Shown: in pieces, positions 2 to 10,680 of the stretch
Layout: each line of letters starts with the position of its first letter
How positions within the stretch are numbered: position 1 is the stretch's first letter
NCBI GenBank assembly: GCA_946566685.1
Contig: CAMNXA010000004.1
Coordinates: 62,001-126,000 of the forward strand
DNA length: 64,000 nt
Source: an uncultured Lachnospiraceae bacterium
GTDB taxonomy: Bacteria; Bacillota; Clostridia; Lachnospirales; Lachnospiraceae
Reading direction: 5' to 3'
Notes under the pieces: model-generated
Database searches by the model: none
The model's input: only the letters and a program-made list of their open reading frames with translations
What the model was told of the DNA's origin: nothing
Program-made: the position numbers and the translations under genes

Positions 2-319
2 CGGGAAATCTGGGAGAAGGAACCGGAAGCGCTTGCGACAGCATCGTATAATAAATTTCGCGCTTATTCGGATGTGACACAGAGGCTGATTACGATGTGG
101 CAGATTTGTTCCGGAAATTTTGTGCCGCATAAGTATCGGGGAAAGATGTTTCTTATCGATGAGAGCAACTATCGGGAAGTGGCGAAAGCTATCGGGAATC
201 AAGAGTACCCGATTGTCAGTCTGAACGAAACGGGCGAGGGAGATTTTGTGCTAATCAAAACGGAAATCAACAGGGCGCTTGCTGAACTTTTTCCTCAAAA
301 ATCTGCTTTTGAAATATGA
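2..319 (+). CDS. Stealth-type capsular polysaccharide phosphotransferase, C-terminal fragment
   Basis: The reading frame is already open at the window edge, so this is only the last ~105 residues of a longer protein; the GTG at 74 in the ORF track is internal. The tail has the pattern I associate with the end of Stealth proteins (sugar-phosphate transferases that add hexose-1-phosphate units to surface polymers): an FRAYSDVTQRL stretch, then a 'VSLNE' segment and the closing 'ELFPQKSAFE', resembling the family's conserved LPxKSxFE end. The stop overlaps an ATG of the next frame (ATGA), and glycan-modifying genes follow. The catalytic regions lie outside the window, so the assignment rests on the tail and the neighbourhood. 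Confidence 0.6.
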   Translation, partial: REIWEKEPEALATASYNKFRAYSDVTQRLITMWQICSGNFVPHKYRGKMFLIDESNYREVAKAIGNQEYPIVSLNETGEGDFVLIKTEINRALAELFPQKSAFEI

Positions 320-369
320 CTTCCGTGGCGAGGGAAGTGGCGTGTAAATATTTTGGAATGGAGATTATC

Positions 370-1413
370 ATGCAGGCATTGACAATCAGGGACAACGACA
401 GGCTGCTTATTGTGGCACCCCACCCGGATGACGAATGTATCGGGCCAGGCGGGATTCTTGCATTGTACCCACAGCTTTGCAAGGTGGTTGTGCTTACAGA
501 TGGAAGGCAGGGGCAGGGGGATACGCCTCCTGAGCTTGAAAAACAGATAAGAAAACGGGAATTTATCAGCGGGATGCAGGAAGCGGGTATCAGGGACTAC
601 GAAATGCTGGATTATGAGGACGGCAGTCTGATGCAGCATACGGATTGTCTTGCAAATATGAATCTGAGTTTTTTCACTAAGATTTTTGTGACAGGGATAC
701 ATGACAATCATCCTGATCATACGGCGGCATGTATGAGCGTGCAGAAGGCGTTAAAAAAACAGGAAATTACCGATGTGGAAATATATCTGTATGAGGTGCA
801 TACCCCACTGCTGGAAGCAACGCATACGTTAGATATTACGCAGGTTTTGGAAAAAAAGATGAATCTGATCAGACATCATCAGTCGCAGCTGACAAGCCTC
901 CCATATGATAAGATGGCCAAATCTCTTGCAGAGTATAGGGCTTTGCAGAACCGGGCGGATGGATGTTATTTTGAAACCTATGCTTGTATGAGACCGGGTG
1001 ACAATCTGGAGAGCGGTACGGTAGAACTGGAAAAGAAATGGCAGAAAAGCGTATTGTTCTACTGGATACTGACAAAGTGGATGGATTGGAAGATTAGGGG
1101 CAAATGTGTTGCTGATGCGCTGTTGAAACAGAATTTTCGTCAAATAGCGGTATACGGTTATGCAGAACTGGGACAGCTGCTTTGCCGTGAACTTGCGGAT
1201 ACAAAGGCAGAGGTATCCTATGTATTGGATAAAAGAGTAAAAGACACAGGAATAACAGGGCTGTCAGTATACATTCCACAAAACGGACTGTCCCATGTGG
1301 ATGCTGTGGTCGTAACGGCGGTTTACTATTTTGATGAGATCAAAGAGGAACTGTCGCAGATGGGATATCGGAATATTATTTCTTTCAGGACACTTCTGGA
1401 GGCGGACGAGTGA
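370..1413 (+). CDS. PIG-L (LmbE-like) deacetylase with C-terminal Rossmann-like module
   Basis: Predicted zinc-dependent N-deacetylase of the PIG-L family, which removes acetyl groups from GlcNAc-containing glycans or precursors. Residues 18-22 are HPDDE and residues 111-117 are HDNHPDH, the metal-binding motifs of the family. After the ~240-residue catalytic domain, residues ~259-347 form a separate module beginning 'IAVYGYAELGQLL', with an 'LDKR' after the second strand and 'DAVVVTA' later; related modules occur in the next five genes. I prefer the ATG at 370 (GGAG six bases upstream); 358 is an in-frame alternative and 316 overlaps the previous stop but has no ribosome site. Substrate unknown; a sugar of the polymer made by this cluster is the natural guess. 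Confidence 0.83.
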   Translation: MQALTIRDNDRLLIVAPHPDDECIGPGGILALYPQLCKVVVLTDGRQGQGDTPPELEKQIRKREFISGMQEAGIRDYEMLDYEDGSLMQHTDCLANMNLSFFTKIFVTGIHDNHPDHTAACMSVQKALKKQEITDVEIYLYEVHTPLLEATHTLDITQVLEKKMNLIRHHQSQLTSLPYDKMAKSLAEYRALQNRADGCYFETYACMRPGDNLESGTVELEKKWQKSVLFYWILTKWMDWKIRGKCVADALLKQNFRQIAVYGYAELGQLLCRELADTKAEVSYVLDKRVKDTGITGLSVYIPQNGLSHVDAVVVTAVYYFDEIKEELSQMGYRNIISFRTLLEADE

Positions 1414-1449
1414 GCGCGGAAATGCAAAGTGGGGCAGTGAGGGGCGATT

Positions 1450-2544
1450 ATGAAAAACATTATTGTTTTTGGAACAGGAAAGTATTTTGAATGTAAAAAG
1501 GAAACGCTGGAAACAAAATATCATATTATAAAATTTCTTGATAACAGAGTGGAGAAGGGAAAAAGGGAGTTGTATCAGGATGGGGATATAGAAGTGGTCA
1601 ATCCTGACGATTTAAATAGAGACGATGATACTCCTATATTTCTGATGTCGGTACATTTTGTGAGTATGTGGAGACAGCTTTGCCGGATAGGTATATCAGC
1701 GGAACGGATTCAGTTTCCTTATATGGAGAAACCATATTTTGAAAATGATGATGCTCTGTGCCATTATCTGAGCCATATTACATTTTTGGAAGATTATTTT
1801 TCATGTGTTCGGGAAGACGGTATGGCGATAGAAATCAGGAATGAAGATGAATGGCGCGGTCTGCTGCGGGATGCTTACCGAAGCCGTTATCCGTTAATTC
1901 ATTCTATTGCGGAGATGAAGACAGAGCCTGTCAGCCGGCAGTTTGGAACGGAGAGAGGGACTCCGGTTGATCGGTATTATATCGAAAAAATTCTGGAAGA
2001 GCATAAACAAATAGTCAGAGGAGAGGTCCTCGAGATTGAAGACAATATCTATTCTCTGCGGTATGGGGAAGAACGGTTGCAAAAGGCAATTGTTATGGAT
2101 GTGGGAAAGGAAGGTGGGGGTATTTCATTCCGGGGCAACCTTGAGACGGGGGAAGGAATTCAGGATGAGATAGCGGACTGCTTTATATTAACACAGACTT
2201 TAATGTATATTTTTGACTTAAAAAGTGCGGCGCACCATATTGTGCGGCTGTTAAAACGCGGCGGAAGTGTACTGATTACATGCTCCGGTATTTCTCAAAA
2301 TTCGAAACGGTGTATGGACGATTATGGATGTTGTTTTAATTTCAATACGGATGCTCTGCGTAGATTATTTGAACAGGAAAAGGGCGTGGAAGTTGTGGAA
2401 GTCGGAAGTTACGGTAATGTGAAGACGGTCACCGCGCATTTGAATGGCTTATGCTGTGAAGATTTGGAGCCAGACGATTTTATACCGAATGACAAGTATT
2501 ATCCGCTGATTGTGTATGCGGTGGTGAGAAAGTATGAAAATTGA
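1450..2544 (+). CDS. SAM-dependent methyltransferase with N-terminal Rossmann-like module
   Basis: 364 residues in two parts. The first ~95 residues are a Rossmann-like module ('IIVFGTGKYFE', then 'FLDNR') matching the extra module in its neighbours. From ~170 on the protein resembles class I methyltransferases found beside glycosyltransferases: 'GTPVDRYYIEKIL', then 'GEVLEIEDNIYSLRYG' where motif I would be, 'FILTQTLMYIFDL', 'LLKRGGSVLI' and 'GNVKTVTAHLNGL'. Motif I lacks the usual GxGxG, which is normal for this subgroup. A GAGGGG ribosome site precedes the ATG. It probably methylates a sugar or glycan end group of the surface polymer; target not determinable. The gene is visibly A/T-richer than the housekeeping genes downstream. 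Confidence 0.75.
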   Translation: MKNIIVFGTGKYFECKKETLETKYHIIKFLDNRVEKGKRELYQDGDIEVVNPDDLNRDDDTPIFLMSVHFVSMWRQLCRIGISAERIQFPYMEKPYFENDDALCHYLSHITFLEDYFSCVREDGMAIEIRNEDEWRGLLRDAYRSRYPLIHSIAEMKTEPVSRQFGTERGTPVDRYYIEKILEEHKQIVRGEVLEIEDNIYSLRYGEERLQKAIVMDVGKEGGGISFRGNLETGEGIQDEIADCFILTQTLMYIFDLKSAAHHIVRLLKRGGSVLITCSGISQNSKRCMDDYGCCFNFNTDALRRLFEQEKGVEVVEVGSYGNVKTVTAHLNGLCCEDLEPDDFIPNDKYYPLIVYAVVRKYEN

Positions 2545-2561
2545 AATTTTATGGAGGCAAA

Positions 2562-4115
2562 ATGGATAAAAGAAAAATCCCCCGGATTCTGGCAATTTAT
2601 CTGCCACAGTTTCATGAGACAAAGGACAACAATTCATGGTGGGGCAGAGGGTTTACGGACTGGGAGACTGTGAAAACTGCGGAGACGTATTTTCCCGGGC
2701 ATAATCAGCCGAGGGTGCCGTTCAACCAATACTATTATGATCTCAGCCAAAAGAAGGCCATGGAAAGGCAGGCAGAGTTGGCAGCGGATTACGGTATCGG
2801 CGGGTTTTGTTTCTACCACTATTATTTTAAGGATGGAAAAAAGGAGTTGGAACTACCGGCTGAGAACTTATTGAAATGGAAAGATATAAAAATGCCATTT
2901 TGCTTTAATTGGGCGAGTGAATCATGGATTCGATCATGGAGCAGATTTACAGGGAATGTCTGGGCAGAAAAATATGAAAAGAAAACGGAAGACGTGACGG
3001 GTGTCGCAAACGGAATACTTGCAGAGCAGGATTATGGAGGAGAGGAGGACTGGGTAAAGCATTTTGCATATCTTTTGCCTTTTTTTAAGGATGATAGATA
3101 TATCAAAAAGGATGGCAGGCCGGTATTTGTCTTTTACAGCCCGAACGATATAAAACCGCTTGGCGAAATGACGGACTGTTGGCGCAGATTAGCCCGGGAA
3201 GCAGGATTGGAAGGCCTATATCTGATTGGTTCAAGGTTGAACGCGCCGACCTCATATCTGGATGCCGCACTCATTTATGAACCGAGAAACAGTATTAATA
3301 AGTTGAATTCTGATGGAAAAGCGCAGATAAGAAATGGCGTAAGGTGTTTTTCTTATGATGATATTTGGAATTGTATTAATGAAACCGCACCAGTTTATGG
3401 CTGTAAGACGTACTTTTGTGGTGTTTCAGGATATGATGACACGCCAAGGCGGGGAACCAGCGGAGAGTGTCTGGTGGAAGCTTCGCCAGCAATATTCGAG
3501 AGGCAGTTGGAAGCGCTCGTGCAGAAAAGTATCGATGAGGATAATGAGTTTCTTTTTATCAATGCCTGGAATGAGTGGGGAGAAGGAATGTATCTTGAGC
3601 CGGATATAACGGACGGATACCAATATCTTAATGCTGTTAAAAATGCCGTAGATGCTTCTTATAGCTGGGAAAAAGCAAACGTGGAGGGGAAAGCCAAGGA
3701 AGTAGTAAAAGCGGAAATAAGCGCATTGAGTGATAATGTCCAGAAATTTAAGAGTCTGTTTGAGTTGATCGATAAATGGCTGTTTTTGGAACAGGAAGAT
3801 AAAGTGAGTTTCAGAAGATATTTTCAGGATAAGGGCATTCATAGTGTTGCAGTTTATGGTATGGCGGCATTGGGGAAGCATGTGTTGGTTCAGTTAAGGA
3901 AGGAGGGGATTGCTCTTCTTTTTGGAATTGACCGTTATGTGGGACAGTTTGGGGATGATTTTAAAATATACCGTCCGGAAGAGGAGTTTCCAGATGTGGA
4001 TGCCATTATTATTACGGCTTATGATACAGGCGCAATTTGCAGGCAGTTACAGGACAGATACAAAGGAATTGTTATTGCCTTGGAAAATATAATTGATGAG
4101 ATGGCCAGATGGTGA
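2562..4115 (+). CDS. WbsX-like (GH99-like) glycan protein with C-terminal Rossmann-like module
   Basis: 517 residues. Residues ~5-340 match the WbsX/'glycosyltransferase WbsX' family common in O-antigen and rhamnan clusters: 'AIYLPQFHETKDNNSWWG', 'GFTDWETVK', 'GIGGFCFYHYYF', 'FCFNWASESW' and 'INAWNEWGEGMYLEPD'. The family has a GH99-like fold and its exact reaction is unsettled. A helical linker leads to residues ~429-517, a Rossmann-like module ('VAVYGMAALGKHVL', 'IDRY', 'DAIIITA'), the C-terminal counterpart of those in neighbouring proteins. GGAGG just before the ATG at 2562 fixes the start; the TTG at 2541 in the ORF track overlaps the previous stop. Confidence 0.83.
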   Translation: MDKRKIPRILAIYLPQFHETKDNNSWWGRGFTDWETVKTAETYFPGHNQPRVPFNQYYYDLSQKKAMERQAELAADYGIGGFCFYHYYFKDGKKELELPAENLLKWKDIKMPFCFNWASESWIRSWSRFTGNVWAEKYEKKTEDVTGVANGILAEQDYGGEEDWVKHFAYLLPFFKDDRYIKKDGRPVFVFYSPNDIKPLGEMTDCWRRLAREAGLEGLYLIGSRLNAPTSYLDAALIYEPRNSINKLNSDGKAQIRNGVRCFSYDDIWNCINETAPVYGCKTYFCGVSGYDDTPRRGTSGECLVEASPAIFERQLEALVQKSIDEDNEFLFINAWNEWGEGMYLEPDITDGYQYLNAVKNAVDASYSWEKANVEGKAKEVVKAEISALSDNVQKFKSLFELIDKWLFLEQEDKVSFRRYFQDKGIHSVAVYGMAALGKHVLVQLRKEGIALLFGIDRYVGQFGDDFKIYRPEEEFPDVDAIIITAYDTGAICRQLQDRYKGIVIALENIIDEMARW

Positions 4116-4205
4116 GAAGGAGAATTGGGAATATGGGGTGTGAGTCAGTCACGTTTATAAAGAAAGCAGAAAGGTATATTTATCTGTATTTGGAGGAAAG
4201 GGACT

Positions 4206-5267
4206 TTGTGTGACATTGAAAAGATTCAGGAGATTTATAAAAGATTACAGGACGATGAATCAAAAGAAATTTATATTGACAGGCTGAATTACAGTATGAC
4301 ACAGGATGTTTATTTCTTGAAGAAAATGGTTGATCAGTCGGTAAAAAGCAAAGCGGTATGGAAGAATTTCCTGAATAATCTGGCTGTATTGTCTGAAAAG
4401 AATGAACTCGCTATTTTTGGCGCTGGTATGTGGGGCAATATTTTATATAGAGAGACATGTGGGATAGTGAAGTGGAAATATATGGTGGATACTAATCCTG
4501 CTAAGAAGGAGGATAGTCCGATACCATTTCTTGATTTTCAGAGATATATGGAAAAATTTCAGGGGAAGGGATATGTTGTTCTGTCCTCCTTTAAATATTT
4601 CTGGGAAATGAAAGAGCAGTTACAGAGCAATGGTATTCCCGATGAGCGGATCATCGATGCAGGAAGCGTCATTTACCAGTTGACGGAGCAGGCCATTTAC
4701 TTTGACTTGAAGGAATTACTGCCATTTAGAAAGCAGGAGGTTTTTGTGGACGCAGGCTGTTTTGATGGGGCAACGACAAGACAGTTTTTTAAGTGGTGCC
4801 AGGGGAAAGGTTATTCCTACTGCCTGGAGCCCGATGCAAGTAATATTTCCTTGATCAAAACAAATTTAGGAAACAGCCGTGATTTTCAAATAATAGAAAA
4901 AGCGTTATGGTCAGAAACAACGGAACTCTCGATAAACGTCAGAGGAAATTGTGCGACATCAGTTACTGAGAACAATGGCGAGAACGGGCAGCAGAGAATA
5001 GGGGCTGTGGCGCTTGACGATATTCTGTTGGATAAAAATGTGACTATTATCAAGATGGATATCGAGGGCGCGGAGGTGGCGGCTTTACACGGAGCGATGC
5101 GGATCATATCCGAACAAAAGCCGCGACTTGCCATCAGTATTTACCACAAGCTGGATGATATCTGGGAAATTCCCCAGACAATCTTAAGCTATCATCCTGA
5201 GTATAAACTTTATCTAAGACATTATTCGTTTTCCGACTATGATACTGTCTTGTATGCAATTCCGTAG
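4206..5267 (+). CDS. FkbM-family methyltransferase with internal Rossmann-like module
   Basis: 353 residues starting at TTG (GGAGG about ten bases upstream; no other start fits). A helical N-terminus (~1-60) leads into a Rossmann-like module at ~65-150 ('LAIFGAGMWGNIL', 'MVDTNP', 'YVVLSSFKYFWEM'). The FkbM methyltransferase follows at ~175-350: 'VFVDAGCFDGATT' is the SAM-binding loop, 'CLEPD' the acidic end of the next strand, and 'IIKMDIEGAE' the FkbM hallmark. FkbM enzymes O-methylate sugars and other small groups. The 90-base gap before it holds no terminator, so it is probably in the same operon. Confidence 0.85.
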   Translation: MCDIEKIQEIYKRLQDDESKEIYIDRLNYSMTQDVYFLKKMVDQSVKSKAVWKNFLNNLAVLSEKNELAIFGAGMWGNILYRETCGIVKWKYMVDTNPAKKEDSPIPFLDFQRYMEKFQGKGYVVLSSFKYFWEMKEQLQSNGIPDERIIDAGSVIYQLTEQAIYFDLKELLPFRKQEVFVDAGCFDGATTRQFFKWCQGKGYSYCLEPDASNISLIKTNLGNSRDFQIIEKALWSETTELSINVRGNCATSVTENNGENGQQRIGAVALDDILLDKNVTIIKMDIEGAEVAALHGAMRIISEQKPRLAISIYHKLDDIWEIPQTILSYHPEYKLYLRHYSFSDYDTVLYAIP

Positions 5268-5325
5268 AATGGATACAGGAGTGTATGGTGTAAAATGCCA
5301 TACGTACTCTGAAATGAGGAGGCAT

Positions 5326-6723
5326 ATGAAATATCTTATTTTTGGCACCGGCGATTACTACAACCGCTACAAAGAATGGTTTCCCAGGGAGAAAGTCGCA
5401 GCACTGCTCGACAACGCGCCGGAAAAGCAGGGCACTCTCCTGGATGGCATACCAGTAGTCTCACCGAGGCAGGGGGTACAGCTTCCTTATGATACTGTCG
5501 TGATCTTAAGCTTTTACGTGAAGACAATGAAGTGTCAGCTTTTGGAGCTGGGCGTGCCAGAAGAAAAAATCTATCATTTCTTTGATCTAAACAGGCTGAT
5601 CTGCCGTGGAAATGGCGGACAGGCCATCGATTATAAGAAACCAATACAGTATTACGGGGGTGCGGAACAGATTGAGCCGTCTACCGCTATCCTGCTTTTA
5701 TCCCATGATCTGAACATGAGCGGGCCGGCGCTCGCCCTCTATCACATGGCACAGGCATTTCAGAAGATGGAGAATAAAATCGTGGTGGCATCCATGCTGG
5801 ATGGGCCATTACGGCCGGTGCTTTTGGAGGCGGGAATCCCGGTCATTGTCGATGTCAATTTGCAGATTGAGACTATGGATGATGCAGGATGGCCGGAAAA
5901 GTTTTCCCTGATTGTCTGCAATACTATTAATTTCCATGTGTTTTTATCAAAACGGAATACGGACACACCGGTGGTATGGTGGCTGCATGATTCGGCCTTT
6001 TTTTATGACGGGGTGAGCCCCGATGTTTTAAAGTCGGTCAGTATGGAAAAAATGCGGGTTTGTGCCGTTGGACCTGTGGCGCGGTCTGCGATGGAGAGAT
6101 TCCGTACGGATCTGGAGATTGAGGATTTACTGTATGGGGTTGCGGATGAAGCGGAGAACGGGGAGAGATGGAATACAGACAGGGATAAGGTGTGCTTTGT
6201 GACAATTGGTTACATAGAGATGCGAAAAGGGCAGGATATTCTTGTAAAGGCACTTCGGGGTATACCAGAGCAAATCCGCCGGAAGGCAGTGTTTTATATT
6301 GTCGGGCAGGACACCTCTTTACTTGCGAAGCAGGTCAGGGAAGAGTTGGGAGAGATTGCGGAAGCGGTTATGACAGGCGTTTTGGACAGGGAGAAAATAC
6401 ACGGACTTTTAGAGCAGGCAGATGTGCTGGTGTGTCCATCCAGGGAGGATCCCATGCCAACGGTGGCGGCGGAGGCGATGATGCACGGCGTGCCTTGCAT
6501 TTTATCGGATGCCACAGGCACAGCCGGGTACATACAGGACGGGATGGACGGTATCGTGTTTCGCAGCGAAGATGCTGAGCAGCTTGCGGATAAGATGATC
6601 TGGTGCATCGAACATCCGGGGCAGCTTGCGGATATGGGAATCCGGGCGCGAAAGGTCTATGAAAATGTATTTTCCATGCGGGTATTTGAAGAAAACGTGC
6701 AGCGGATTTTGTCTAAAGCGTAA
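5326..6723 (+). CDS. GT4 glycosyltransferase with N-terminal Rossmann-like module
   Basis: 465 residues. Residues ~1-90 are a Rossmann-like module ('YLIFGTGDYYNRY', 'LLDNAP', 'DTVVILSFYV') close in style to that of the methyltransferase at 1450. From ~110 on it is a GT-B family 4 transferase: 'ILLLSHDLNMSGPALAL' is the acceptor-side glycine loop, 'FVTIGYIEMRKGQDILVKAL' opens the donor domain, and 'PSREDPMPTVAAEAM' is the E-x7-E donor-binding motif. GT4 enzymes transfer a sugar from NDP-sugar with retention. AGGAGG lies three bases before the ATG at 5326; the longer track frame starts inside the previous gene. Sugar and acceptor unknown. Confidence 0.85.
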   Translation: MKYLIFGTGDYYNRYKEWFPREKVAALLDNAPEKQGTLLDGIPVVSPRQGVQLPYDTVVILSFYVKTMKCQLLELGVPEEKIYHFFDLNRLICRGNGGQAIDYKKPIQYYGGAEQIEPSTAILLLSHDLNMSGPALALYHMAQAFQKMENKIVVASMLDGPLRPVLLEAGIPVIVDVNLQIETMDDAGWPEKFSLIVCNTINFHVFLSKRNTDTPVVWWLHDSAFFYDGVSPDVLKSVSMEKMRVCAVGPVARSAMERFRTDLEIEDLLYGVADEAENGERWNTDRDKVCFVTIGYIEMRKGQDILVKALRGIPEQIRRKAVFYIVGQDTSLLAKQVREELGEIAEAVMTGVLDREKIHGLLEQADVLVCPSREDPMPTVAAEAMMHGVPCILSDATGTAGYIQDGMDGIVFRSEDAEQLADKMIWCIEHPGQLADMGIRARKVYENVFSMRVFEENVQRILSKA

Positions 6724-6874
6724 GGGAAACTGGATGAGGTGATAAAACAGTATTGCTGATTAAGTGTTGAAGAGGCAAATGGAAATTAGGGCAAGTCATT
6801 TGGTGAAATTTGATTGTATTAGAATTTTAGAGACAAGCTGCATGGACAGATAAATTGGGAAAAGAGGGGAAAAC

Positions 6875-8941
6875 GTGTCCGATTTACAAAAATTTTTAGT
6901 AGAATACAGAGACTGTAAGATTGCCATATATGGGCTTGGTGCCGAGACGGAGCGTGTTCTCAAAGAAATTGGAGACTGCGTTCAGGTAGTCGGACTGTTG
7001 GACAGTTATCAGAACAGCGGGAGCTTATATGGGAAACCAATTATTTCTCTGGAAGAGGCGATTTTGGAATCGGTCAGGCTGATTTTGGTGGCGGCACGGC
7101 CAGGATCCTGCCGGGCGATCGCGAAACGGATCGGCGGTATGTGCAGGGAAAAGCAGATTGCCCTGTTTGATATAAGGGGAAACGACCTTTGCGATGCAAA
7201 ACGAGTAGTATATGATTTTAAAAAAGTACCAGGTTATACGAAAAGCCAGGTGATGCAAAAGGCCCTGACATATGACGCCGTCAGCTTTGATCTGTTTGAC
7301 ACATTGATCATGCGTCAGGTACTGTTTCCGGGCGATGTCTTTGAAGTGGTAGATGACAGGCTGAGGCAGCATGGAATTATAATAGAAGATTTCCCGGCCA
7401 AACGGATGGCGAGCGAGAAGGAATTGTCCAGAGATCGAGCACCCAGGCTTTCGGAGATTTACACGCACATGAAACAGGCCTATCAGTTATCCGAGATTGA
7501 GCCGGAGCAGATGGCGGTGCTGGAGTGGGAGATTGACTGCGGGCTGATTGTTCCACGCAGGGAGGTCTGTCGGCTGCTTTCCGATTTGGAAGCGCGGGGG
7601 AAGAAAGTCTATATTGTGACCGATTCCTACTATAATAAGAAACAGATTACACGTATATTGAGAAAGTGCGGCATCACTCATTATACTGATGTTTTTGTTT
7701 CATGTGAGTATGGAATTGGAAAGACCCAGGGGCTTTTTCAGGAATTTAAGGAGGTCGTGGATGTCTGGTCATACCTTCATGTCGGGGATGATGTGGCGGC
7801 GGATGTGGAGAGTGCGGAAAAAAACGGCATCAGCGCCTGCCGGCTTTACAGCGGTATGGATTTTCTGGAGCAGGCCGGGTATATGGGGCTGTGGGATTAC
7901 ACGGAGTACCTGTCAGACCGGATTAGGATCGGCATGTTTGCAGCCAATGTCTTTAATAGTCCGTTCCAGTTTGAGACACAGGAGTGCCGGATTGGCGTCC
8001 ATACGGCGTATGATATTGGCTATGTCTTTTTTGCGCCTATGATCTGTGACTTTGTTCTGTGGTTCCGTGAACAAGCGGAACAATTTCAGCTTGAAAATAT
8101 TCTTTTCTGCGCAAGGGATGGTTACCTAGTCAAGCAGCTCTATGACGAGCTCTGCAATCAGATTTCTTCCGTCTATTTTCTGACATCACGGATGGCGGCA
8201 ATCCGAGCTGGCATGGAGAGCGAGGAGGATATTCGATATGTGGGGAATATGAAGTTCAGCGGAAGCCTGTTTAGGCAGCTGGAGGAACGGTTTGGGATTC
8301 AGGTCAGCAGGGAAGAGGGGCAGGAGAACGCGAGGACGGAGTTGTCAGACTATATGTCTGAGATTCTGGAACGTGCGGTCGTGAGCAGGCAAAATTATCT
8401 TACATATATTGAAAAGCTGGATTTAAAAAGTGGAGGGGCAGGCTTTTTTGATTTTGTGGCAAAGGGAACTACCCAGATGTATATGGGCAGGATGATGGAA
8501 CAGCATCTGAAGGGGATTTATTTTTTGCGTCTTGAAAAGGAGCAGATGGCGGGAAAGGATTTGGATATCGTATCCTTCTATGATACGGAGGAGATGAACA
8601 ACAGTGTGATTTTTAAGGACTATTATATACTCGAGACGATGCTGACGGCGCCTATGCCCTCGGTCAGGGAGTTTGATGCGGATGGGAATCCTGTGTATGC
8701 GGAGGAAACCAGGAGGGAAAGCGATATCCGGTGTTTTCAGGAGGCGCAGGAAGGAATCAGAGGGTATTTTAGGGAATATTTGAAGGTGTGCCCTATATCT
8801 GCCAGGAGGGTGGATAAAAAACTGGATGAAGTTTTTCTAACACTGATTCACGGAATAGAAATTACAGATAGTGATTTCCTGAATTTAAAGGTAGAAGATC
8901 CGTTCTTTAACCGCATGACGGATATGATAGATATGCTGTAG
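6875..8941 (+). CDS. HAD-superfamily (COG5610-type) protein with N-terminal Rossmann-like module
   Basis: 688 residues from GTG with GAGGGG upstream. Residues ~10-110 repeat the Rossmann-like module ('IAIYGLGAETERVL', 'LLDSYQ', 'LILVAARPG'). A HAD domain follows with all motifs: 'FDLFDTL' near 137-143 (nucleophile Asp), 'YIVTDS', a Lys in 'GIGKTQ', and 'HVGDDVAADVESA'. Residues ~340-688 do not match a domain I can name; 'ILFCARDGYLVKQLYDEL' and 'FFDFVAKGTTQMYMGRM' are typical of COG5610 proteins in polysaccharide clusters. A phosphatase or phosphotransferase role on a glycan intermediate is plausible but unproven. It is the last gene of the cluster. Confidence 0.75.
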   Translation: MSDLQKFLVEYRDCKIAIYGLGAETERVLKEIGDCVQVVGLLDSYQNSGSLYGKPIISLEEAILESVRLILVAARPGSCRAIAKRIGGMCREKQIALFDIRGNDLCDAKRVVYDFKKVPGYTKSQVMQKALTYDAVSFDLFDTLIMRQVLFPGDVFEVVDDRLRQHGIIIEDFPAKRMASEKELSRDRAPRLSEIYTHMKQAYQLSEIEPEQMAVLEWEIDCGLIVPRREVCRLLSDLEARGKKVYIVTDSYYNKKQITRILRKCGITHYTDVFVSCEYGIGKTQGLFQEFKEVVDVWSYLHVGDDVAADVESAEKNGISACRLYSGMDFLEQAGYMGLWDYTEYLSDRIRIGMFAANVFNSPFQFETQECRIGVHTAYDIGYVFFAPMICDFVLWFREQAEQFQLENILFCARDGYLVKQLYDELCNQISSVYFLTSRMAAIRAGMESEEDIRYVGNMKFSGSLFRQLEERFGIQVSREEGQENARTELSDYMSEILERAVVSRQNYLTYIEKLDLKSGGAGFFDFVAKGTTQMYMGRMMEQHLKGIYFLRLEKEQMAGKDLDIVSFYDTEEMNNSVIFKDYYILETMLTAPMPSVREFDADGNPVYAEETRRESDIRCFQEAQEGIRGYFREYLKVCPISARRVDKKLDEVFLTLIHGIEITDSDFLNLKVEDPFFNRMTDMIDML

Positions 8942-9293: not shown

Positions 9294-9473
9294 ATATCGT
9301 ATCACTTTTCACATGGATACGATATCTGGCTTCCGGCTCATCCGGAAGATGAACGGAGCAGTTCGCTCCAGCATTACCAACTTTTAACCGACAGAAAAGG
9401 CAGGACAGTGTTAAGGGCGGGCTCTTTGATCTTCTCTCCTTTTCTGTATCAAACAAGGTGTGTCTGGCACACC
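9294..9473 (+). promoter_or_regulatory. Leader of the Rpn gene with four hairpins
   Basis: Four separate perfect inverted repeats lie between 9294 and 9473, ending eight bases before the AAAGGAGG ribosome site: ATATCGTATC/GATACGATAT (9294-9303/9316-9325), CTTCCGG/CCGGAAG (9330-9336/9342-9348), GGAGC/GCTCC (9355-9359/9365-9369) and GGTGTG/CACACC (9457-9462/9468-9473). A possible -10 (TATAGT) lies near 9274-9279. It is not a riboswitch class I recognise. Confidence 0.45.
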
Positions 9474-9492
9474 GTTCAGAAAAGGAGGCACT

Positions 9493-10680
9493 ATGGCCAA
9501 GGAAAAGCAAGTCACTTCCAAAAGGAAGAATATCATCAACAATCCGCATTTGCATGACAGTGGCGGTAAACTGATCTTCGGGGATAATATCCTCTGTTCT
9601 CAGTTCCTCAGGGATTATGCAGATGTGGATATCCTCCGGAATATCAGCCCGGAGGATATCGAGGATGTATCGGAACGTTATGTCCTGCTCTTCAGTTCCC
9701 AAAGAGACAGCGATTCCGTTAAGAAAGTAAATATCTCCAAATATCTTTCAAAAAAAGAAGACGAAAATCCACTTGGATTACCACTTTATATTGTTTCTCT
9801 TGTTGAACATAAGACCAAAGTGGAGTACAATGTATGTATGCAGATATTCCGATATATGTTCTGTATCTGGGAGGACTATGAAAAAGAGATGGAAAGAGCT
9901 CATCCCGGAATCAGTGCCAGGAGGGATTTCAGGTATCCGCCAATCCTGCCGATTGTGTACTATGAGGGGACGGACCGCTGGACGGCGCCGAAGGACCTGT
10001 CGGATCGGATACTCTGCAAGGAACTGTTGGGCGATTATCTTCCGCACCTTACCTATCAGGTGGTAAGACTGCACGATTACAGTAATGAAGAGCTATTGTC
10101 GAAGGGAGATGAGATCTCTCTTGCCATGCTGGTCAATAAGATTAGAAGTCCGGAGGATGTAGAGGACTTTGCCCAGCTTCCCAGGGAGAAGGTGGACAAG
10201 ATCCTACAGGATACGCCGGGATATTTATTGGAGATTATGGCCAAGCTGACACGTGCGTTGTTTTATAATATGGACATACCGGAGGATAAGACAGAGGAAG
10301 CGGTAGCAAAGATAAAGGAGCGCAAGATGGGAAGATTATTTGAGGGGATAACATTTGACTATCAGGCAGAGATGAGGAAGATGAGGGAAGCAAGAGAGGC
10401 CGCGGAGAAGGAGATAGAGGCGGCGGAGAAGGAAATAGAAGCCGCACGGCAGGAAGCCCAGCGGGAAGCCCAGCGGGAAGCCCAGAAAGAAGTAGAGGCG
10501 GTGCAGCGGGAAGCCCAGAAGGAAATAGAAGCTGCCAGGCAAGAACTCAAAATTTCGAGGTATATTGCAAAGATGTTGAGTGGAGACCATTCGGTAAGTG
10601 AAATTAAGGCTTCATTAAAGCAAGAGTTTGGTTTGTCAGAAGAACAGGCAGATGAGGCGTATCAAAAGGCGATCGAATAG
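9493..10680 (+). CDS. Rpn-family recombination-promoting nuclease / putative transposase
   Basis: 395 residues. The first ~300 match the Rpn/YhgA-like PD-(D/E)XK family: 'FGDNILCSQFLRDY' near the N-terminus, then 'YIVSLVEHKTKVEYNVCMQIFRYM', where E-x-K supplies the nuclease core, and 'PPILPIVYYEG'. Rpn proteins in E. coli are DNA endonucleases that raise recombination. Residues ~300-365 are a Glu/Ala/Gln-rich coiled coil with repeated 'EIEAA' and 'QREA' units, followed by a small helical C-terminus ('GLSEEQADEAYQKA'). The ATG at 9493 follows AAAGGAGG; the track start at 9460 lies inside a leader hairpin. Clostridia carry many copies of such genes. No terminal repeats show it to be a transposon. 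Confidence 0.78.
   Translation: MAKEKQVTSKRKNIINNPHLHDSGGKLIFGDNILCSQFLRDYADVDILRNISPEDIEDVSERYVLLFSSQRDSDSVKKVNISKYLSKKEDENPLGLPLYIVSLVEHKTKVEYNVCMQIFRYMFCIWEDYEKEMERAHPGISARRDFRYPPILPIVYYEGTDRWTAPKDLSDRILCKELLGDYLPHLTYQVVRLHDYSNEELLSKGDEISLAMLVNKIRSPEDVEDFAQLPREKVDKILQDTPGYLLEIMAKLTRALFYNMDIPEDKTEEAVAKIKERKMGRLFEGITFDYQAEMRKMREAREAAEKEIEAAEKEIEAARQEAQREAQREAQKEVEAVQREAQKEIEAARQELKISRYIAKMLSGDHSVSEIKASLKQEFGLSEEQADEAYQKAIE
10459..10515 (+). repeat. 12-bp tandem repeats within the Rpn gene
   Basis: CAGCGGGAAGCC occurs at 10459-10470 and 10471-10482 and again at 10504-10515, with diverged copies between; each encodes Gln-Arg-Glu-Ala. Just upstream (~10397-10440) two 21-base units encode the repeated AEKEIEA. 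All are multiples of three, so copy-number change would alter coiled-coil length without breaking the frame. Confidence 0.7.

Follow-up and report, generated by a model that had tools for sequence, protein, structure and literature searches.

A recurrent Rossmann-like module joined to unrelated glycan-assembly enzymes in a Lachnospiraceae genome

Introduction

Why should six different enzymes, encoded side by side in one glycan cluster, carry the same small domain? The question is raised by a 64,000-nucleotide stretch of DNA from an uncultured Lachnospiraceae bacterium (GenBank assembly GCA_946566685.1, contig CAMNXA010000004.1, here C4), which was analysed as G000:C4:62001-126000 and is called the window below. 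Six complete open reading frames (ORFs) at window positions 316-8941 encode a deacetylase, two methyltransferases, a WbsX protein, a glycosyltransferase and a HAD-type protein. A first-pass annotation of the bare sequence had proposed that each contains a Rossmann-like module and that the modules have a common job. Schemes of glycan pathways usually show the enzymes as separate units, linked through a common intermediate. We report that the module is an add-on to assembly enzymes, that it recurs in a membrane-anchored form, and that it may serve as a docking or regulatory plug.

Results and Discussion

One module in six window proteins

All six ORFs lie on the forward (+) strand; ORF calls, here and in all other loci, were mechanical. 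The first encodes a PIG-L type de-N-acetylase (316-1413; Pfam PIG-L, E 8.5e-15; catalytic part at residues 31-141), for which 358 and 370 are possible later starts. It is followed by an S-adenosylmethionine (SAM) methyltransferase (1450-2544; Methyltransf_11, 2.7e-4), a WbsX protein (2541-4115; WbsX, 2e-111), an FkbM methyltransferase (4206-5267; FkbM, 1.5e-12), a GT4 glycosyltransferase (5326-6723; GT4, 5e-29) and the HAD-type protein (6875-8941; Hydrolase, 2.7e-9). Judged from homologues, which align from residue 30, the GT4 protein probably starts at 5326 rather than at 5239, where its ORF opens. Pfam and NCBIfam named the catalytic parts of all six proteins and gave no family at the module places.

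Profile searches showed that the six segments, of about 80-95 residues, are homologous in spite of high divergence (about 20% identity). A profile of any five modules recovered the sixth among 219 ORFs at E 1e-9 to 0.01. An independent profile, made from modules of other species that have no BLAST similarity to those of the window, matched these six places and no others (E 2e-16 to 1e-6); the best score among 1,800 shuffled proteins was E 0.4. The places are residues 275-357 of the deacetylase (1138-1386; E 7e-10; motifs IAVYGYAELG, LDKR and VDAVVVTA), 1-93 of the SAM methyltransferase (1450-1728; E 3e-11), 435-517 of WbsX (3843-4091; E 1e-6), 65-151 of FkbM (4398-4658; E 1e-10), 30-118 of GT4 (5326-5592; E 2e-16) and 15-89 of the HAD-type protein (6917-7141; E 1e-9). 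The placement given earlier thus stands for the C-terminal modules of the deacetylase and WbsX and for the N-terminal ones of the methyltransferase, GT4 and HAD proteins; the FkbM module, described as internal, is N-terminal to the catalytic domain and follows about 64 residues. A remnant of an NAD dehydrogenase was rejected as the identity of the module, as true Rossmann proteins of the same loci (SDR/GFO-IDH and epimerase) score far below the modules.

Structure prediction could have revealed different folds. AlphaFold2 models of the deacetylase module (predicted local distance difference test, pLDDT, 78.8; alignment of six sequences) and the GT4 module (pLDDT 92.6, predicted TM-score, pTM, 0.83; 51 sequences) agree in the order of their elements except for one short helix: beta-alpha-beta, a further strand, and beta-alpha-beta-alpha. 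The fold of the other four modules rests on sequence homology. Homology and predicted fold together support the view that the six segments form one domain family of common ancestry and common, Rossmann-like fold.

The module is an add-on confined to assembly enzymes

The genome holds 35 modules at E below 1e-10, all within three glycan loci (C4:50.8-69.1 kb, C1:3.8-14.2 kb and C1:199-240 kb). Their partners comprise at least 14 enzyme classes, in addition to standalone copies of 98-158 residues. By Pfam they include PIG-L, two kinds of SAM methyltransferase, WbsX, FkbM, GT4, GT2, GT-D and HAD; further partners are a pyruvyltransferase, TagF-like, cytidylyltransferase-like, GDSL and radical SAM proteins and several unnamed ones, and one GDSL partner carries two modules. 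That each complete protein of the cluster has the module, as first stated, is true within the window but not of the cluster as a whole, where a Stealth-type protein (C4:61321-62319, its end at window 2-319, + strand), a 555-residue methyltransferase, a GT4 protein and an upstream polysaccharide deacetylase lack it.

Modules were also found in 35 of 100 genomes of the same family, taken to be Lachnospiraceae, often clustered, and in 24 of 300 Bacillota genomes of several families. In 48 related loci (L097-L144), collected with an anchored module protein described below as bait, 345 of the 844 ORFs bear the module. Nearly all are labelled Lachnospiraceae or related Clostridia; the one labelled Muribaculaceae (L098) has a typical Lachnospiraceae module cluster and is probably a misassigned contig of a metagenome-assembled genome. 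The window order of PIG-L, methyltransferase, WbsX and FkbM is repeated in two of these loci (L116, L128), and the GT4-HAD pair in three (L117, L119, L140). We found no description of these module fusions in the literature.

Enzyme classes were assigned in the 48 loci from the catalytic parts alone, with the module cut away. Assembly and tailoring enzymes carry the module in 145 of 271 cases, versus none of 35 precursor-making and other metabolic enzymes (Fisher p 4e-11; kinship among the genomes makes this and later p values guides), counts that depend on the chosen seed profiles and leave 538 ORFs outside any class. The share is high for FkbM (32/37), WbsX (8/10), HAD (7/8), GT-D (9/10) and PIG-L (3/4), and is 50/86 for GT2, 23/75 for GT4 and 6/12 for radical SAM proteins. 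The module-free set consists of NDP-sugar (nucleoside diphosphate sugar) epimerases, nucleotidyltransferases, Asn-synthase-like, GFO/IDH and APS-kinase proteins. Likewise, no gene has the module in a nonulosonate (sialic or legionaminic type) precursor block upstream of the window (C4:37805-46000; nucleotidyltransferase, NeuB, a UDP-GlcNAc 2-epimerase homologue and cytidylyltransferase). The cytidylyltransferase-like fusion of this genome comes closest to an exception.

This distribution bears on the idea that the module is a substrate platform, which, like the N-domain of PglD, would hold either the nucleotide of an NDP-sugar, and so channel the donor, or some shared acceptor-glycan feature. 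The PglD and VioB N-domains are indeed related, and acceptor binding would fit the placement on assembly enzymes. However, the partners use different donors (SAM, several NDP-sugars, water), the enzymes that make NDP-sugars are among the 35 without the module, and the module also exists without any catalytic domain. We regard a substrate platform as distinctly unlikely.

The module could still be a routine part of each enzyme family, whatever the cluster. It is not: among 18 WbsX proteins from 399 Bacillota genomes, 14 lack it, one of them encoded in this genome (C1:147 kb), outside the module clusters. Therefore, the module is an add-on to its enzymes. Module-free PIG-L, GT2, GT4 and FkbM enzymes also occur in the same kind of locus. 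For 177 of 279 modules, the nearest neighbour in another locus is carried by a homologous enzyme (base rate 5%), and each enzyme class keeps the module in a stable position; most fusions are therefore inherited.

If the module were a mobile passenger with no common job, retained for the sake of folding or expression, this would account for the low sequence identity, for the enzymes of other genomes that do without the module, and for its attachment to either end of WbsX (C-terminal in L167, N-terminal in L172). Against this, glycine and aspartate positions are conserved over 434 modules, the position is stable for each enzyme class, precursor enzymes are excluded, and the anchored form has no enzyme in need of help. 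We consider a mere passenger very improbable.

In the same genome, a paralogue of the window module-methyltransferase (C4:52985-54058) is a single frame broken by one TAA at C4:53321 into a 112-residue standalone module and a 218-residue methyltransferase ORF.

Two module classes and their conserved residues

The modules fall into two classes. Class B comprises those of the methyltransferase, FkbM, GT4 and, in divergent form, HAD proteins; class A comprises those of the deacetylase and WbsX (class-A profile E 1e-39 for the latter). Class A is marked by a preceding helical linker with an invariant Trp, located by alignment at 1042-1137 (residues 243-274) in the deacetylase and 3738-3842 in WbsX, and by AxYG and VD motifs. 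The two classes are homologous (hhalign probability 98.5, E 1.6e-15).

The proposed G-x-G turn after strand 1 and the Asp closing strand 2 were borne out, with G7 present in 99% and D31 in 86% of the 434 modules. The second Gly is kept in 92% of class B, and the first Asp at the end of strand 2 in 84-92%. The next position is Asn in 44% of class B and mostly Lys or Arg in class A. In a PglD-like enzyme the N-domain is a platform for uridine diphosphate (UDP), one Asp contacting the ribose and the next the uracil (PMC8040287). Aligned by motif, this pair would correspond to the strand-2 Asp of the module and its neighbour.

Such residues raise the possibility that the modules work singly as allosteric sensors of a nucleotide (uridine or cytidine monophosphate, UMP or CMP, UDP, or NAD(H)), each adjusting the enzyme that bears it to the supply of precursors without forming a complex. 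The conserved turn and Asp speak for it, as do the structural neighbours Rex and the GFO/IDH domains, and the domain of unknown function (DUF) of WbaP is stabilised by UMP, UDP and UTP while full-length WbaP is inhibited by UMP (PMC10942596). A sensor would leave the standalone modules, anchored or soluble, unexplained; the pocket is partly lost in class A; and release of UMP is not expected from methyltransferases, the deacetylase or WbsX. We judge a sensor of this kind unlikely on balance.

A membrane-anchored module without an enzyme

Upstream of the window, C4:56600-57076 encodes a class-A module protein of 158 residues, which has only three parts: an N-terminal transmembrane helix, hydrophobic and rich in Gly; a helical linker in common with the window deacetylase and WbsX; and the module. 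In the 48 loci, an N-terminal transmembrane helix is predicted in 47 of the 63 standalone modules of 130-190 residues, versus 8 of the 279 other module proteins. Class A was found in 13 of 35 module-bearing and in none of 65 module-free Lachnospiraceae genomes (p 2e-7), a comparison independent of the bait. The anchored protein of about 158 residues is a recurrent, conserved and undescribed form of the module. Searches of phages and plasmids gave no match to it.

Four loci (L113, L118, L124, L130) contain a conserved triad of a soluble standalone module, a module-less GT4 protein and the anchored module protein, which resembles the fusions in split form. Two further arrangements were set aside. 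A Rosetta-stone link between the anchored protein and WbsX, given by a module-free WbsX directly upstream of the anchored gene, was seen in 2 of 48 loci (L112, L140) and is not claimed; soluble standalone modules preceding module-less enzymes (9 of 11) were judged too few.

A possible docking role

Among the jobs first proposed (docking, binding of a nucleotide-sugar or cofactor, redox sensing), docking fits best, because the module keeps to assembly enzymes and also exists in an anchored standalone form. Its occurrence both in multiple enzymes of a pathway and in an anchored protein that is not an enzyme is a scaffold-like trait. Redox sensing was dropped, since nothing beyond a distant similarity to Rex speaks for it.

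From sequence patterns, models and analogy, we tentatively propose, as somewhat short of an even chance, that the module is a docking or regulatory plug by which assembly enzymes are brought together, in many cases at a membrane hub. Class-B modules would hold a nucleotide in their pocket, and modules would contact each other, a partner or a class-A hub. Soluble glycosyltransferases, methyltransferases, the deacetylase, WbsX and HAD enzymes could then act as one assembly, and in many clusters the anchored class-A protein of about 158 residues would serve as their hub and keep them at the membrane. A stronger form is a plug-and-socket line in which a non-catalytic, membrane-anchored hub and dozens of unrelated enzymes all bear one Rossmann plug, so that gaining the module means joining the line; it seems to us somewhat unlikely.

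Several observations weigh against the docking proposal. Class A is absent from 22 of the 35 module-bearing genomes, so that a hub is not required everywhere, and the frequency of the anchored protein in the 48 loci, which were collected with it as bait, is not a prevalence. Many GT4 and GT2 enzymes of the same loci have no module. A locus-specific docking code was looked for and rejected: modules of unrelated enzymes are not clearly more alike within a locus (p 0.07). Finally, nucleotide binding by class A is doubtful, because the second Gly is kept in only 34% of its members and the residue that would contact the base is usually Lys or Arg.

In its stronger form, as a plug-and-socket line, the proposal would amount to a general means of recruiting enzymes to those glycosylation islands of gut Lachnospiraceae that have no transporter and are perhaps of flagellin type. 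A non-catalytic domain spread over so many glycan enzymes, and found as an anchored protein as well, would provide a testable rule for how they are assembled or co-switched. The module profile is a practical marker for unnamed assembly genes of gut bacteria that Pfam leaves blank.

Surroundings of the module loci

A simple hydropathy count left 47 of the 48 loci without any polytopic membrane ORF, and no Wzx/Wzy-type export gene was seen within about 10 kb. Such an absence is unusual for capsule clusters. In one genome (G087), three flagellin genes adjoin the module cluster (L078). Because of these flagellins and the missing export genes, cytosolic protein glycosylation of the flagellin type is possible. 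A general flagellar linkage was rejected, as no flagellins were found in the other module loci searched or on the contigs that hold the clusters of this genome.

TnpB/Cas12f1-like proteins lie beside module clusters of this genome (C4:34808-36112, equal to L010:14808-16109, and C1:248380-249744, equal to L157:10380-11744) and of another species (L079:1703-2980, L081:2105-3382). Their usual RuvC acidic positions are apparently replaced (GLAVG, YLPKLP, ENTAKN), and from these motifs they look nuclease-dead and TldR-like. TldRs associated with csrA and with fliC/hag have been reported (PMC13418256); we found no published association with glycan islands. Paralogous proteins of 457 and 840 residues (C4:36395-37768, C1:245498-248017), possibly TagF-like though unconfirmed, stand at the edges of the two clusters and in several other module loci. 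Downstream of the window cluster, an ORF at 9460-10680 ends in a repetitive coiled coil and resembles Rpn/PD-(D/E)XK transposase-family proteins.

Comparison with known domains

The earlier suggestion that PglD N-domains and the C-terminal domains of C-methyltransferases are relatives is upheld. In Pfam, the modules gave weak matches to C2185-like_N, PglD_N, CoA_binding and Methyltransf_14. In the profile search against PDB, the best match was 3nkl (E 1e-8, 2e-9), with 2g6t, Rex and VioB also found. Foldseek placed 2g6t first for the GT4 module, followed by Rex, VioB and 3nkl; the deacetylase module gave mainly generic NAD-type domains and 3nkl.

The N-domain of 2g6t (C2185-like_N, PF22674), a protein that we take to be CAC2185 from the Pfam name, has the same fold and is closest to the GT4 module (TMq 0.74, E 9e-5, root-mean-square deviation 2.4, 28% identity; module profile match E 1e-8). 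Weak matches to this family were given by 21 of 51 modules; in this genome there were nine, none over the curated cut-off. It differs from the module in being one solved protein, with no series of fusions, and we found no paper on the function of C2185-like_N proteins.

PglD_N (PF17836; PglD, VioB, Pcryo_0637) has the same fold and order of motifs, with a UDP/dTDP-binding Asp closing strand 2. Its cut-off is passed by three other modules of this genome and by none of the six in the window. It belongs to left-handed beta-helix acetyltransferases, whereas the window partners are PIG-L, methyltransferase, WbsX, FkbM, GT4 and HAD proteins. The C-terminal domain of C-methyltransferases (PF08484, Methyltransf_14; TylC3), weakly matched by 7 of 51 modules, likewise belongs to a sugar-nucleotide enzyme but to a single enzyme type. 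The N-terminal part of the solved FkbM methyltransferase 2py6 matches the module profile at E 0.008, as a lone weak example. The NAD domain of the redox repressor Rex is similar in structure (Foldseek E 5e-4) and sequence (E 3e-7), but Rex has a winged-helix DNA-binding domain that none of the six window proteins has.

The DUF of WbaP and PglF (PF13727, CoA_binding_3; 3nkl, which from its title and family we take to be a PglF-type N-domain) is also common to functionally unrelated glycan enzymes. It follows a four-helix membrane bundle in two enzyme types, phosphoglycosyl transferase and dehydratase, whereas the modules are joined to many types, mostly soluble. The WbaP domain resembles the PglF N-domain, provides most of the dimer contacts and responds to UMP and UDP (PMC10942596), and modelling of a WbaP homologue activated by a response regulator places the activation at its dimer (PMC12802240). 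The nearest known domains of the module, C2185-like_N, PglD_N, the WbaP/PglF DUF and Rex, are thus domains that bind nucleotides or NAD, or that dimerise.

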